From: a bacterium
GTDB lineage: Bacteria; Patescibacteriota; Saccharimonadia; Saccharimonadales; Saccharimonadaceae
DNA: 50,438 bases
Direction: 5' to 3'
Assembly (NCBI GenBank): GCA_030429975.1
Contig: JAUIGB010000005.1
Coordinates: 1-50,438 of the forward strand
Shown one piece after another: positions 38,517 to 44,625 of this stretch. Numbering within the stretch: the first letter of the stretch is position 1; each line of letters begins with the position of its first letter. The notes beneath the pieces were generated by a model. That model saw nothing but the letters and a program-made list of their open reading frames with translations, did not search any database and was not told the DNA's origin. The position numbers were made by a program, and so were the translations under genes.

Positions 38517-39557
38517 ATGAAGATACTATTCCCTACTCTATTAAAAAAACATACTGTTGCGATTGGACTAGTATTTCTATCAATGGCGCTGGCTATTCAC
38601 GGTCCCGTCGCTACTACGAACGCTCAAGCCGCTAACGAAACAAGGGGTTTTCAGGAGCTAAAGAACAAAGCTCTGGAAGAAATTGAAAGACGCGTTCAGA
38701 ATTATCGCGAAACCAGAGAGAGACTTACTGTTGATATTAATATTAGCAAGGAAAACTCCAGCGCAACTATTGAGAAGGCCGAAAACGGCTTATATATTAC
38801 AAAAGATGAAAATGGATTGGACGTGAAGCTCGAGCTCGCGTCGAATCTAAAGGAAAAGGTAAAAAGCTTTACGGAAAAAACCATAGAGCAACTGAGCCAT
38901 TTAAAAGAAAAAGTCAAAGGTGCGCAAAGCATGGAGGACATACAGCCACTTATCAAGAATATAGAGGCCCAACATCAACTAACGCAGCTGGCGGATGTAC
39001 AATCTAAAGTTACGAACGCAATCGAGACTTTAACTGGTGTTGTAGACAAAATAGAAGTTGCTCGCGATAAGCTAAAATCACAAATCCAATTAATGCGGGA
39101 ATGTCTGGGCGGAATAAAAAGTGGTAATAGTGAAATAAGTATAAAGAGTGAAAATGGCGATACCACTGTCTCTGGTGCAGGACCCGGATGCGAGGATCTC
39201 AACATCAGTAGTGCCGATGCGATCGTCGACGCCGAGTCGCGCATGGCCAATATCGCAACCATGACATCAACCGTCAAGAATGTTCTTGCATCCGCAATGT
39301 CATTGTTGGCTGGGTCGGTCGATACGTTTAATAGTATATTGAGCGAACTGGGTAATGCGAGCGGTTTAGGCAATTTAGGCAACCTGGGAAATACAACAAA
39401 TCTAAGCAGTTTATTAAGCGATAGCGATGGCATAGGTAGCATAAATGGCCTCATGAGTTCATTTACGGCCATTACGTCTCAATTAGGGCTTGCCAATGGA
39501 ATGTCTGGAAATGTTCAGGGCTTGCTAGGAAATCTGACCAGCTTTATAAATGTCTAG
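38517..39557 (+). CDS. Secreted coiled-coil protein with Gly/Asn/Leu-rich tail, 346 aa
   Basis: Signal peptide of about 38 residues (cleavage near TTNAQA). Residues about 45-210 are coiled coil. The C-terminal ~130 residues are low in charge, with repeats such as L-G-N-A-S-G-L-G-N-L-G-N-L-G-N, which could self-assemble or span a surface layer. Two Cys lie at M-R-E-C-L-G and G-P-G-C-E. Shine-Dalgarno GGAGG. Last gene of the three-gene operon. Its end overlaps the convergent dus gene by 4 bp. Confidence 0.65.
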   Translation: MKILFPTLLKKHTVAIGLVFLSMALAIHGPVATTNAQAANETRGFQELKNKALEEIERRVQNYRETRERLTVDINISKENSSATIEKAENGLYITKDENGLDVKLELASNLKEKVKSFTEKTIEQLSHLKEKVKGAQSMEDIQPLIKNIEAQHQLTQLADVQSKVTNAIETLTGVVDKIEVARDKLKSQIQLMRECLGGIKSGNSEISIKSENGDTTVSGAGPGCEDLNISSADAIVDAESRMANIATMTSTVKNVLASAMSLLAGSVDTFNSILSELGNASGLGNLGNLGNTTNLSSLLSDSDGIGSINGLMSSFTAITSQLGLANGMSGNVQGLLGNLTSFINV

Positions 39558-40504
39558 CGAATACTAGCGATCAAAGAGCGAACTTCGTCAGTGCTTTTTG
39601 TGTGCATCATTCTATCACGAAGCTCCGCGGCGCCATCAAATTCACGAATGTATATTTTGAAGAATCTCTTTAGGGTATCAAACGGACGTCCGGTTTGTTT
39701 TGAATATTTATCGTATAAATCTAATTGTATTTTCAATAAGTTAATCATGTCATCTCTAGTATGTTCTTTCTGATTGGTTTCGAAGGCGTATGGATTATGA
39801 AACACTCCCCTGCCTATCATTACCCCATCTACGTCGTATTTGTTTACTAGTTCCAGACCATGCGTGCGATCGTTAATGTCACCATTGATAGTTAATAGCG
39901 TATCGGGAGCTATGTCATCACGAAGTTTTTTGATTTCGGGAATTAGTTCGTAGTGGGCCGGAACCTTACTCATCTCCTTTTTGGAGCGCAAGTGAATGGT
40001 AAGGTTGACTACATCCTGCCGTAATATGTGGCCTAGCCATTCGGGCCACTCGTCTACCCTGCTATAGCCTAATCGAGTTTTTACACTCACGGGAAGCCCG
40101 GATTTTTTAGCTGCATCTATAATAGCAGTTGCGTTCTCGGGTGTTCGTATCATACCGGCTCCGCCACCGCTTTTAACGGCTGTTGCCTCGGGGCACCCCA
40201 TATTTATATCTATACCGTCAAATCCTAATTCAGCACAGTGTAGTGCCATTTGCTCCATGCATGTGGGGTCTGAACCCCATAGCTGAGCAACCAGAGGATG
40301 TTCATCATCTGTTTTGATAAGCCTGCCGCCGATTGCTTTATCACCTGCGTGCGCCCAGCCAGTCGCGTTTGTAAACTCGGTGAAAAAAACGTCTGGTGAA
40401 CCGGCGTGCTTGATAACATGACGAAACACGACATCCGTGACGGCCTCCATGGGGGCAAGGATGAAAAAAGGTTTGGGTAGTTCGTACCAAAAATTATTAC
40501 TCAT
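39554..40504 (-). CDS. dus: tRNA-dihydrouridine synthase
   Basis: 316 residues. FMN-barrel opening (F-F-I-L-A-P-M-E-A-V-T-D-V-V-F), V-A-Q-L-W-G-S-D-P, the active-site loop D-I-N-M-G-C-P with catalytic Cys104, K-S-G-G-G-A-G-M, and the phosphate loops I-N-G-D-I and G-V-M-I-G-R-G. It reduces specific uridines in tRNA to dihydrouridine using NADPH. TACAAT ends 7 nt before the ATG. Confidence 0.95.
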   Translation of the reverse strand: MSNNFWYELPKPFFILAPMEAVTDVVFRHVIKHAGSPDVFFTEFTNATGWAHAGDKAIGGRLIKTDDEHPLVAQLWGSDPTCMEQMALHCAELGFDGIDINMGCPEATAVKSGGGAGMIRTPENATAIIDAAKKSGLPVSVKTRLGYSRVDEWPEWLGHILRQDVVNLTIHLRSKKEMSKVPAHYELIPEIKKLRDDIAPDTLLTINGDINDRTHGLELVNKYDVDGVMIGRGVFHNPYAFETNQKEHTRDDMINLLKIQLDLYDKYSKQTGRPFDTLKRFFKIYIREFDGAAELRDRMMHTKSTDEVRSLIASIR

Positions 40505-40559
40505 TATATATATTGTAACGTGATAAAAAAATAACCGTCGCTAATCGCAACGGAAAATA

Positions 40560-40800
40560 TTACGAGCGGAGGGGGTGCCGATCGGCGACACACCCTTCCG
40601 CTCCTAGTAATTCAACCGGGATTACCGGTCACCTCGAACTACTAGCCTTGCGACATAGTGCACCGCTTGCCCTTGTCGCTAGGTTTTTGGGAGCCGGCCA
40701 CGTACGCCCGGGGGGCGAGACGTACGTGGCCGGCAGGCGGGTACTATAGCGCCTGGCTGCGCGTACCCAACCTATCTCGTGACGGGTGTCCCACGTCCGC
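40560..40800 (-). ncRNA. GC-rich multi-hairpin block downstream of the tRNA-like genes
   Basis: Nearly every base can pair. Hairpins at 40564-40603 (GAGCGGA/TCCGCTC ends), 40604-40645 (CTAGTA/TACTAG with inner ACCGG/CCGGT), 40642-40682 (CTAG and GCGACA/TGTCGC), 40693-40734 (14 bp, GCCGGCCACGTACG with CGTACGTGGCCGGC) and 40739-40768 (GGGTAC/GTACCC with inner GCGC). Whether it is a distinct RNA, the trailer of the tRNA transcript or a series of terminators is not clear. No known family signature is seen. Confidence 0.45.
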
Positions 40801-40824
40801 ACGAGTCTTTACATAGAAAGTTTG

Positions 40825-40909
40825 TGCGAGCAACGGGATTTGAACCCGTGACCTCCGCCGTGAAGGCGGCGCTCTACCGTCCCTGCTGGGAACTCTGAGC
40901 TATACTCGC
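40825..40909 (-). tRNA. tRNA-Val-like gene with D-loop insertion and short anticodon loop
   Basis: Acceptor GCGAGTA/TGCTCGC, D-stem GCTC/GAGC, variable AGGTC and T-arm ACGGG-TTCAAAT-CCCGT are intact; A73 is present and CCA is not encoded. The D-loop is 22 nt and contains a GTTCCC-AGCA-GGGAC hairpin. The anticodon stem CCGCC/GGCGG encloses only TTCAC, two bases short of the T-T-C-A-C-A-C expected for tRNA-Val(CAC). It is either a tRNA with unusual processing or a decaying pseudogene. Confidence 0.6.
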
Positions 40910-41072: not shown

Positions 41073-41207
41073 GGCGGATGGCAGGAATCGAACCTGCGAC
41101 CTCTGACGGCAGGATTCGCCTATTCAGCCACCGGGATGCGCTCTTCCCGGGTCGTGATATTTGAATCCTTCCCGGGGTGTCAGCGCTCTGCCCTGAGCTA
41201 CATCCGC
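41073..41207 (-). tRNA. tRNA-like gene interrupted in the anticodon loop
   Basis: Acceptor GCGGATG/CATCCGC, D-arm GCTC-AGGGCA-GAGC, anticodon stem CTGAC/GTCAG, variable AGGTC and T-arm GCAGG-TTCGATT-CCTGC are all perfect. Between the two halves of the anticodon stem are 71 nt instead of 7. The insert folds: AGGATTC pairs with GAATCCT and encloses CCGGGA-8 nt-TCCCGG. It is too short for a group I intron. The anticodon cannot be read, so the amino acid is unknown. The insert could be an intron removed by an unknown route, or the gene is dead. Confidence 0.55.
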
Positions 41208-41346
41208 ATTGCAGACAAACTTTCGTGTAAACGTTCGACAGGAAAGTATGCAGCGGGCATAAAAAGAATGACGTATTCTCGTCATCCCCGCCACATACAC
41301 GTCTGTACTAGAAAGTAATTATATTTATTTATACTGTTTTTGTCAA
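41208..41346. other. Intergenic, upstream of the tRNA-like cluster
   Basis: About 140 bp with no gene seen; it should hold the promoter of the tRNA-like cluster (minus strand) and the end of the helicase transcript. Confidence 0.4.
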
Positions 41347-44300
41347 CTATATTTTACCAGCCAGCAGATCATCCTCAAATTGTTTGATACCGTCAATTGT
41401 TTTGTCATACTCTGAGGTGTCGGGAAAGGACAAATCTTGGACATGTTGCCATATTATTTGAACTAACTTTTTGAAACGATCAAGCTCTTGCTGCTCTATA
41501 GAGCCCAAGTTGAGTTCCATAATCTCGCCGTTATCGTTGGGTTCAACGAACTGCAGGATGCCGTCGTTCATTTTATATTTTCTCCAATCGCGAGAGTTCT
41601 CTATTAGTAGTTTATAAAATAACAGTTGCTGTCTGTATTTGTATGCTTTGACTTTTTTATAGACATCACCTTTATCCCATGACGATAGAACACTACCCGT
41701 TTTGTAATCAACGACGCGGGCCGTCATGGTGTCTTTGTCTAATTCGACTACGTCTAATTTCCCTGTCAGGTGCGCGTCGTTCAGATACGCGTCTTGGCGA
41801 GCAAAGTCCAATTCTGCTAATTGCGTAGGTTTGAAACCGTCATATTTTGCATTCAAAAACGCCCTTAACGTGTCGCAGCCTTTATGGGTAAAATGCCTTC
41901 TGTCGTCGTCCGTAAAAATTAATTTATCCATCTGTTTTTCAAACTCTTGTAACACATCCTCTTCTGGCAAATGTGATCCGGTGGATTTCAGATGTTCGTG
42001 AGCTCGTTGCAAAGACCTATGGATGGCAGTGCCATAGTTTGCGTTTGCCGCGGGAGCCGCAGGAAAGTGCAATAGTGAATCTAGCAAGAATCTGTGTGGT
42101 CCTGAGTTTACTATATCCGTGAATCGGTTGATATGAGTGGCGCTCAGTTTGTAGCTATTCAAAATTGGCGCCAAATACTCACGCATAGTTGCTGATGGAA
42201 TGTTAACTATAGGAGCATACCACTGGCTCTCTGATGCTGCTAATTGCTCTGACTCACCGTATCCTTCGACCTCGTTCAACTCGATGCTACTATTTAACAG
42301 GAATGCGGAACGCAAGGTCTCCTTTGCTGAATCATTTTCTCCTGAAAACGATATATGGAGCCCTTTTCTAGCGCGTGTCATCGCTACATAGAATAGACGC
42401 AACCTCTCGTCGTAATCATCATTGTTCTGTCGCAAACGCAAATGTGGCGGAAACGAGATAACCGATGATTTACCTCTCACCTTTTCGCCCCAAACCGTGT
42501 CTACTCCATTGATGATAAACACATGATCAAACTCCAATCCTTTTGATCCATGTGCCGACATCATCTGTACGGCATTGTCGTCATCACCTAGATGGCGTAG
42601 GCTTGTGATGTTAATTCCGGCCTTTCGGTTATCATCTATGAATTGTAGAAAATCAACTAGTTTTGGAGATTTCATGTCTACCGCATTGTCACGTAGCTTT
42701 TGTCGCAGTGCTGATAAACTGTCCAGGTGTGCCACATAACTACTAGCATCATGTCTGATTTTTTCTATCGGGAAATAATACTTACGTATTGGAGACCATA
42801 TATCTTCGATGTCCTTGTTGCCGATAAGTATGTCCAAGATTATTTCCAGGGGCGCGTGTTTTGCTTGCGCCGCCGCTCCGACTAGCCATTCGAATAGTTT
42901 ATTGGTCTCGTCTTGTTCGGCTAACAACTCCATCCAGAGCCTTTTTGTTTCATAAGACTTGATACTAATTTTCCATAACAATGTCGGTTTTATTTGCCAT
43001 GCTGGGTGGGATAAAAGTTCTGGCAACATCGAGTTGGCTGTCATATGGTCGCCGATACTTATGGCATGAACTATATTACCGAGTAGTTCTAGTAGGACAA
43101 TTACTTCATCGTCCAGTACGTTTTCTCGTTTGTCATAACTGATAGGTATTTCTTCATTTGCCATGTACCCGAGCAAATTTATTAAATCGGAGTGTTTTCT
43201 AGCTATAATTGCAATTTCACTCGGCTTTACGCCGGAATTAATCAGAGATTTTACTGATGATCCAATCCACTTTCTTTCGTCGTGCGAAGACGGGAAAGAC
43301 ACTATCTCTGTTCTGGAGTCATCATCTTTTCTATTGGATTGCAGGGTTTTATTTAAGGAACTTATCTTTGACTCTAGTCTATCGTCGCCCTGCACTATTA
43401 CTTCGCGTGATCCGTCCAGTATCGTCTGTGAGCTACGGTAGTTTTCTGTTAGCGTTATCAGGTTTGCTTTTTTGTATTTGTCACGAAAGTTTAGAATATT
43501 GCTGACTTCGGCTCCTTGAAAACCATAGATAGCTTGATCGTCGTCACCAACTACTAGGATATTTGGAGAATCTTCCACCACTGGATTGTTTGTGAGGTTA
43601 TGTAGAATACGCATTTGCGCCATGTTTGTATCCTGAAACTCGTCGACCATAATGTAATGATATTTCTCTTGCAAATCATAGCGTAGATCATCGTTCACTT
43701 CGATTGCGTGAACCGTTTGCATAATCATGTCGTCGTAATCCAACAGCTCTGCTTTTTCTAGTATTTTTAAATATAGACCGTATATGATATTGAGCTCACG
43801 AAGCTTTGGAAGTGCCTTTTGAATCTTTAGTATTTTTGATTTGTCGGCGCCGCTAGTCATCCATTCGTCTTTCCAGGCCGTTATTGGTGGCGTAACTTTC
43901 TCGTGATTTCTTGCCTCTTCTAGTGTGGATTTGATGCTTTTTATTAATACATCTTTTAGAGTTGCGACGTTTGGTAGTGGCGAACTTTCGTCAACTTCTG
44001 ATATTTCATTCAATACTTCTGACAGTTTATCGACCGTTGATTTGCTTACTCTGTCAGTGAAGACTTCTGTGAGTTTCTGACCGACTATCTCTACGGTTGC
44101 TTGAGTCTGATCTAGTAATAACCTGAACTCCTCGTCAGTTAGTCCCGCTCGTTTTAAATCACCTATAGCCGTAATAATGTCACCAATAGACGTGTATCTA
44201 CCGTTCATTTGACTGCGCAGTGGGCTGTCATAGTCACGAGAGTCCAATATCTCTGTAATTATTTTGTGTCTGGCTAGGTCATCTGCCAGGCGGAAGTCGG

Positions 44301-44625
44301 CACCGTTATAAAAATACTCCCTATGCCTATTCATAATTTCCGAGCCAAAAGCGTGGAAAGTAAAAATAGACACGTTGTACGCGTCACGTCCGATTATGCT
44401 GGTAAGGCGCTTTTGCATTGCTATAGAACCGGCATCCGTGAATGTTAGGCATAGTATGTTTTCTGGGCTTGTGTCTGTCCTTTTTAGAATATTAGCCGCG
44501 CGCATGCTCAATAGCTCGGTCTTGCCAGTGCCTGGACCTGCTATTACCATCACGGGTCCATCGATTTGATCAACTGCAGATTTCTGAGCAGTGTTGAGCT
44601 GCTGATAGCGTTTTTCAAAATCCAT
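41347..44625 (-). CDS. UvrD-like helicase fused to a PD-(D/E)XK nuclease (AddA/RecB-like)
   Basis: 1092 residues. The SF1 helicase motifs are complete: Q-x2-A (Q-K-S-A-V), Walker A in G-P-G-T-G-K-T-E near residue 35, L-T-F-T-D, Walker B V-D-E-F-Q-D-T, G-D-D-D-Q-A-I-Y-G-F-Q-G, H-G-S-K-G-L-E-F and Y-V-A-M-T-R-A-R. The C-terminal ~250 residues carry the RecB-type nuclease motif: T-G-K-L-D-V ... V-V-D-Y-K-T-G and a downstream Y-R-Q-Q-L-L-F-Y. Such proteins process DNA ends for recombination and may degrade foreign DNA. No AddB/RecC partner gene lies in the window. TATAAT ends 8 nt before the ATG. Confidence 0.92.
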   Translation of the reverse strand: MDFEKRYQQLNTAQKSAVDQIDGPVMVIAGPGTGKTELLSMRAANILKRTDTSPENILCLTFTDAGSIAMQKRLTSIIGRDAYNVSIFTFHAFGSEIMNRHREYFYNGADFRLADDLARHKIITEILDSRDYDSPLRSQMNGRYTSIGDIITAIGDLKRAGLTDEEFRLLLDQTQATVEIVGQKLTEVFTDRVSKSTVDKLSEVLNEISEVDESSPLPNVATLKDVLIKSIKSTLEEARNHEKVTPPITAWKDEWMTSGADKSKILKIQKALPKLRELNIIYGLYLKILEKAELLDYDDMIMQTVHAIEVNDDLRYDLQEKYHYIMVDEFQDTNMAQMRILHNLTNNPVVEDSPNILVVGDDDQAIYGFQGAEVSNILNFRDKYKKANLITLTENYRSSQTILDGSREVIVQGDDRLESKISSLNKTLQSNRKDDDSRTEIVSFPSSHDERKWIGSSVKSLINSGVKPSEIAIIARKHSDLINLLGYMANEEIPISYDKRENVLDDEVIVLLELLGNIVHAISIGDHMTANSMLPELLSHPAWQIKPTLLWKISIKSYETKRLWMELLAEQDETNKLFEWLVGAAAQAKHAPLEIILDILIGNKDIEDIWSPIRKYYFPIEKIRHDASSYVAHLDSLSALRQKLRDNAVDMKSPKLVDFLQFIDDNRKAGINITSLRHLGDDDNAVQMMSAHGSKGLEFDHVFIINGVDTVWGEKVRGKSSVISFPPHLRLRQNNDDYDERLRLFYVAMTRARKGLHISFSGENDSAKETLRSAFLLNSSIELNEVEGYGESEQLAASESQWYAPIVNIPSATMREYLAPILNSYKLSATHINRFTDIVNSGPHRFLLDSLLHFPAAPAANANYGTAIHRSLQRAHEHLKSTGSHLPEEDVLQEFEKQMDKLIFTDDDRRHFTHKGCDTLRAFLNAKYDGFKPTQLAELDFARQDAYLNDAHLTGKLDVVELDKDTMTARVVDYKTGSVLSSWDKGDVYKKVKAYKYRQQLLFYKLLIENSRDWRKYKMNDGILQFVEPNDNGEIMELNLGSIEQQELDRFKKLVQIIWQHVQDLSFPDTSEYDKTIDGIKQFEDDLLAGKI

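Follow-up and report, generated by a model that had tools for sequence, protein, structure and literature searches.

A tRNA-like sequence with an enlarged anticodon loop in a predicted structured-RNA operon of Saccharibacteria

Organization of the helicase-dus gap

The window, i.e., the whole stretch of DNA analysed here, consists of 50,438 nucleotides from a member of the Saccharimonadaceae (contig JAUIGB010000005.1, assembly GCA_030429975.1). A gene for a UvrD-type helicase and the dus gene are encoded on the minus strand of the window, and the gap that separates them contains two tRNA-like sequences within a predicted transcription unit. The anatomy of the unit was computed directly, and its features are as follows, in the 5' to 3' order of the minus strand:

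41347-44625, minus strand: UvrD-type (uvrD/addA-type) helicase gene, named from its translation
41318-41346, minus strand: sigma70-type promoter TTGACA-N17-TATAAT, 12/12, from the sequence
41246-41298, minus strand: leader hairpin GTATGTGGCGGG...CCCGCTGCATAC, from sequence and fold, similar to a hairpin in the related loci L140, L141 and L142
41226-41236, minus strand: putative boxA-like element GAACGTTTACA, placed as GCACATTGACA / GCTCTTTAACA in relatives
41215-41231, minus strand: 5' arm of a long-range closing stem, TTTACAcGAAAGTTTGT, with a 10-bp perfect core, paired in the minimum-energy fold
41073-41207, minus strand: tRNA-like 1, a complete tRNA frame with no encoded CCA (tail CAA), RF00005 match
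41108-41178, minus strand: 71-nt replacement of the anticodon loop of tRNA-like 1, predicted to extend the arm (AGGATTC at 41163-41169 with GAATCCT at 41111-41117)
40824-40909, minus strand: tRNA-like 2, with an extra D-loop hairpin (40876-40896), a 5-nt anticodon loop and no CCA
40808-40825, minus strand: 3' arm of the closing stem, ACAAACTTTCtaTGTAAA, with the discriminator base of tRNA-like 2 as its first position
40693-40734, minus strand: very stable hairpin downstream of the closing stem, from the fold
40525-40553, minus strand: intrinsic terminator-like hairpin and U run, the predicted transcript end, from the sequence
39554-40504, minus strand: dus gene, named from its translation

The -35 hexamer of the promoter lies directly at the point where the helicase gene ends, and the promoter is followed by the leader hairpin, the boxA-like site, the first stem arm, the two tRNA-like sequences enclosed by the stem, the hairpins and the terminator. 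The similarity of the boxA-like site is to the consensus only, and it is weaker for GAACGTTTACA in the window than for the sequences of the relatives, such as GCTCTTTAACA in locus L143; a further counterpart, GTTATTTAACA, is located in the 16S leader of a related genome, G024. NusB is encoded. In the closing stem of the window, GAAAGTTTGT pairs with ACAAACTTTC and is lengthened by TTTACA/TGTAAA, but the 10-bp perfect core was equalled in 2 of 20 shuffles and is alone not beyond chance.

tRNA-like 1 is predicted to lie within a longer transcript of about 780 nt, and the predicted 784-nt RNA has a fold z-score of -10.4 relative to shuffled sequences. In an Rfam scan of the window and 40 related loci, RF00005 was the only family that scored above the gathering threshold, with no matches to GOLLD, ROOL, OLE or other large RNAs.

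Structure of the two tRNA-like sequences

The first-pass annotation of this DNA had described a tRNA frame split between the two halves of the anticodon stem, which was borne out by a match to the complete RF00005 model (positions 1-71; cmscan, 51.2 bits, E = 3.6e-8) with all stems paired (acceptor 7/7, D 4/4, anticodon 5/5 and T 5/5). The strands CTGAC and GTCAG of the anticodon stem are separated by 71 nt, and the "64-nt insert" and the "71 nt" of that annotation are one and the same thing, since 71 nt corresponds to a 7-nt loop plus 64 nt. The 3' end of tRNA-like 1 reads ...CATCCGC-C-CAA. ARAGORN detected this sequence only if introns were allowed, and its anticodon was left unsettled between Arg CCT and Gly CCC, depending on the options. 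The annotation had also called the insert structured, a description that fits the whole transcript more than the insert, which by itself is only weakly structured (z = -1.4, as compared to -1.9 for the whole anticodon arm). For tRNA-like 1, a cloverleaf that includes the long arm lies 2 kcal/mol above the minimum-energy fold.

Neither the strand of the split tRNA nor the aberrant neighbour, tRNA-like 2, had been mentioned in the first-pass annotation. The anticodon arm of tRNA-like 2 is CCGCC-TTCAC-GGCGG (40855-40869), and ARAGORN misreads the sequence as Pro(AGG). An open frame of 84 codons on the minus strand runs from 41060 down to approximately 40809, starting after tRNA-like 1 and passing through tRNA-like 2; it was rejected as a gene, as it lacks a Shine-Dalgarno site and neither of the related genomes G006 and G009 has a counterpart, and it probably arose by chance.

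Conservation of the unit in other Saccharibacteria

The conservation of the unit and the covariation of its stem were computed directly from a set of 98 orthologous helicase-dus gaps. A promoter matching at least 10 of 12 positions was identified on the strand of the unit in 49 of these gaps and on the opposite strand in 4, with 2.6 expected by shuffling. Perfect inverted repeats of at least 13 bp were present in 26 of the 98 gaps and were matched in none of 20 shuffles of each. Of these repeats, 22 are variants of one stem, GACAGAGATAGTGA...TCACTATCTCTGTC, which directly follows the boxA-like site and is 13-16 bp long in the relatives. The parts follow one another in the same order in the 16S operon of G024, which has a promoter, GTTATTTAACA and a stem that closes at the end of the 16S gene.

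The covariation analysis covered 18 loci (15 distinct), which were selected by their outer motifs only and include one mis-anchored row (L086). The inner nine positions of the stem form 8.13 pairs on average, as compared to 6.52 when the 3' arms were re-dealt (0 of 5000 as high), and 9 of the 14 pairs have changed on both sides. The covariation score was 0.439 versus 0.210, far above that of slid versions, and neither the pairing nor the score was reached in any of 500 shuffles. The bodies of the unit in ten relatives have fold z-scores from -7.2 to -14.9, while the adjoining helicase coding DNA, used as a control, gave values between 0.2 and -1.7 apart from a single -4.8 (8 shuffles each).

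Aberrant tRNA-like sequences recur in these gaps. The gap of G009, which belongs to the same genus, contains a tRNA whose anticodon loop is 60 nt long and of unrelated sequence, and a second odd tRNA; that of G006 contains three tRNAs, the first of which has a 7-nt loop with C33; and the tRNA-like sequences of L142, L143 and L146 have anticodon loops of 35-50 nt. Other gaps contain tRNA-like sequences with loops of 3-5 nt, or tRNA-like sequences followed by a small open reading frame. Long anticodon hairpins were found in four near relatives, with inserts that have no evident sequence in common yet mostly fold into extended anticodon arms. In four relatives, the fold of minimum energy is a cloverleaf that includes the long arm. 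Compared to shuffled sequences, two of the five long arms are clearly more stable (L140 and L143), the arm in the window is slightly so, and that of L146 is not at all. Among the 34 tRNA-like sequences counted at this locus, with two ordinary tRNA-Cys genes set aside, CCA is encoded by only three, and a 7-nt loop with U33 is kept in about 12 (e.g., Val-TAC in L141). A second tRNA-like sequence in G009, at another locus (L258, G009:C18:3606-3710), has an insert of about 40 nt in the anticodon loop and no CCA. In the gap of G007 (L201 / L097), the 3' half of a tRNA-like sequence is combined with a 5' part that is very long and interrupted, and repeats of 19 bp flank the sequence, which could be a further rearranged member.

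A functionless tRNA pseudogene, decaying after an insertion of foreign DNA, would account for the missing CCA and anticodon, the lack of decoding capacity and the aberrant neighbour, and tRNA genes are common targets of insertions. However, the stems beyond the anticodon arm are still paired in sequences that differ between species, many genomes of the group have kept the promoter and the boxA-like site together with a closing stem that covaries and a strong fold, and the tRNA-like sequences recur in the gap with differing changes to the anticodon. Rather than relaxed constraint and decaying stems, we found that the acceptor stems of 29 tRNA-like sequences, with 25 distinct 5' strands, have on average 6.9 of 7 positions paired, versus 3.9 when re-dealt, a difference to which the search itself contributes in part, because the sequences were found by a tRNA model. 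We therefore consider a pseudogene unlikely.

Many of the units also contain an open reading frame of about 50 codons with a good Shine-Dalgarno sequence, encoding either a zinc-ribbon/CXXCXGXG-like or a basic helical protein. Examples are located in the gaps L173, L177, L178, L192-L194, L157, L142 and L143. None of ten representatives reached the Pfam cut-off. In one close pair (L167/L168), the frames differ by 15 silent and one replacement codon differences, and this frame therefore looks translated and kept.

Splicing, charging and decoding of tRNA-like 1

The first-pass annotation had also raised the possibility of a short insert that needs another removal mechanism. Under this explanation, an intron of unknown type would be excised by an unknown nuclease-ligase pair to yield a working tRNA (Gly or Arg), in line with the perfect frame, its split in the anticodon loop and the presence of inserts at the same place in other members of the genus. 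Ordinary tRNA loops require U33, and the 7-nt loops of the control tRNAs agree with this requirement. Yet excision of the insert could generate eight different 7-nt loops, all of which have C33 and none U33. The absence of the tRNA-splicing endonuclease EndA (PF01974) was computed directly for 61 Saccharibacteria genomes (this one and 60 relatives), with archaeal controls positive. Group I, group II and other intron models of Rfam gave no match at tRNA-like 1, the insert of 64-71 nt compares with a catalytic core of about 200 nt or more in group I introns, and no bulge-helix-bulge motif was apparent at the exon-intron borders, as judged from the predicted folds. An intron of the group I or archaeal type was rejected on the basis of the loops, the endonuclease and the intron models. 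Neither the length nor the sequence of the insert is conserved among the relatives, and the counterpart in G006 starts with the 7-nt C33 loop.

The 3' end argues in the same direction. Among the ordinary tRNA genes checked, 35 of 35 in this genome and 32 of 33 in G009 encode CCA, and the absence of CCA from tRNA-like 1 and of the CCA-adding enzyme (PF01743) from 13 genomes (this one and 12 relatives; ten bacterial controls positive) was computed directly. As a general observation, this genome and its relatives lack the CCA-adding enzyme family, and practically all of their ordinary tRNAs encode CCA. Since tRNA-like 1 has no CCA and no enzyme that could add it, neither charging nor decoding is expected, and judging from the sequence charging should be impossible. 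It thus lacks both features of a functional elongator tRNA, a 7-nt loop with U33 and a 3' CCA, encoded or added. A variant tmRNA was also rejected, as the tmRNA (RF00023) is located elsewhere in the genome (C13:12353-12759).

The remaining argument for an intron is the set of tRNA genes. No intact tRNA-Gly(GCC) was detected in this assembly, although the gene is present in G006, G008, G009 and G024, and tRNA-like 1, the acceptor stem of which is Gly-like, could therefore conceivably be needed for decoding. The tRNAs Ala-TGC, Ile-GAT and Val-TAC are also absent from the assembly. In G024, these three genes are located directly after the 16S gene, which was not found here either, although the 16S search was positive in just 9 of 14 control genomes and its negatives are therefore weak. 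The linkage to the rRNA genes explains the gap for these three tRNAs, for which we set the argument aside, but not that for Gly-GCC. Taken together, we regard a spliced tRNA as very unlikely.

Least probable of all is that the tRNA-like sequences, when charged or bound, act as donors of aminoacyl groups for processes other than translation, like the cell-wall Gly isoacceptors of staphylococci: the acceptor pairs G1-C72 and C2-G71 are like those of tRNA-Gly in three same-genus genomes, but a CCA end and a CCA-adding enzyme are both lacking, and the discriminator bases of the tRNA-like sequences at this locus vary among species (C, U, A, G).

Interpretation of the unit

The non-decoding role that had been proposed as the alternative to splicing is supported by the finding of a conserved structured-RNA operon, the tRNA-like sequences of which mostly have no normal anticodon loop and no CCA. 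We conclude that tRNA-like 1 is probably a tRNA-like domain with no part in decoding, that it belongs to a large structured RNA encoded by a gene organized like an rRNA operon, and that the insert is left unspliced. This non-decoding, unspliced state is much firmer than the functional role.

Transcription, antitermination and cutting by RNase III at the stem are predicted steps. A strong promoter of its own, located between the uvrD/addA-type helicase gene and dus, would drive transcription of the RNA, probably with boxA/NusB antitermination as in an rRNA operon. The ends of the RNA would be brought together by the long-range stem, which may then be cut by a double-strand RNase (RNase III), and the output would be a stable structured RNA. 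Selection would retain the acceptor, D and T arms, not the anticodon, and since the anticodon would be unselected, its loop could lengthen (71 nt here) or shrink (3-5 nt); the insert would be an extension of the anticodon arm that stays in the RNA. In a putative form of tRNA punctuation, RNase P/Z, or else other proteins that bind tRNA, may recognise the tRNA-like parts. The arms visible to all of these proteins are kept, while the anticodon and the CCA needed at the ribosome are lost, so that processing or folding modules of an rRNA-like operon would fit better than decoding. We offer this modular role tentatively, as possible rather than probable.

There is about an even chance that the unit represents an undescribed, widespread RNA operon of Saccharibacteria, possibly a new family of abundant large RNAs comparable to GOLLD, ROOL and OLE, with an rRNA-operon-like frame around a fast-changing stable body and anticodon-less tRNA-like sequences and/or a gene for a protein of about 50 amino acids. 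If so, an RNA that belongs to no described family would be expressed from a strong promoter unit of the rRNA type in many of these bacteria, which are ultrasmall and epibiotic and have reduced genomes, some would build this RNA from tRNA bodies stripped of decoding, and tRNA gene finders would assign spurious anticodons (Pro, Arg, Pyl, Asp) to such genes. The unit should be directly testable, because it is present in TM7i (complete genome CP075337, L193).

Comparison to known systems

A literature search for tRNA-like sequences or structured RNAs in Saccharibacteria gave nothing relevant. The tRNA-Other of Bacillus cereus is a pseudo-tRNA that forms part of a much longer RNA, for which a separate promoter and terminator exist (PMC3399842). 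As in the Saccharibacteria unit, a tRNA-like sequence unused in translation is embedded in a longer RNA, which is predicted here from the promoter, terminator and fold. However, tRNA-Other has kept its Trp anticodon, is weakly aminoacylated and occurs in some Bacilli only, and neither a boxA nor a closing stem is described for it (PMC3399842), whereas the tRNA-like sequence described here has lost its anticodon and lacks CCA, and its operon is distributed across the Saccharibacteria.

According to the sections of PMC12286853 on which we draw, no function is known for GOLLD and ROOL, two large and highly structured RNAs that adjoin tRNAs, and the GOLLD linker sometimes holds tRNAs. The less conserved 5' part of GOLLD is a further similarity to the Saccharibacteria unit. 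GOLLD and ROOL differ in being RNAs of phages, prophages and tRNA islands, as compared to a fixed chromosomal gap here; those sections describe no embedded open reading frame of about 50 codons (PMC12286853), and the Rfam models of both are unmatched.

It is established that boxA may precede long untranslated RNAs (PMC7862264). With rRNA operons and boxA-led CRISPR arrays, the unit shares a strong promoter, a boxA-like site and a long-range stem around a long untranslated RNA, but the RNA enclosed here is neither of these and evolves very fast. With the tRNA introns of the group I and archaeal bulge-helix-bulge types, the insert shares its position in the anticodon loop, but it is too short for group I, matches no ribozyme model and would leave no U33 after excision, and EndA is absent.

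Observations on tRNA-Gly(GCC) genes

The tRNA-Gly(GCC) genes of the relatives (G009:C14, G008:C9, G006:C28 and G024:C1; L247, L262-L264) have a non-canonical T loop, TTAGAGT or TTAGGGT, and in G024 a partial tRNA-Gly-like stretch is located just upstream of the gene. In the present genome, a conserved short promoter-terminator unit, TATAATAATG..TTCTGACCGCTCTCA, was identified at approximately 6855-6950 of contig C24 (L275), with no tRNA-Gly(GCC) following it. The same short unit is located upstream of the Gly-GCC gene in G009 and G008.
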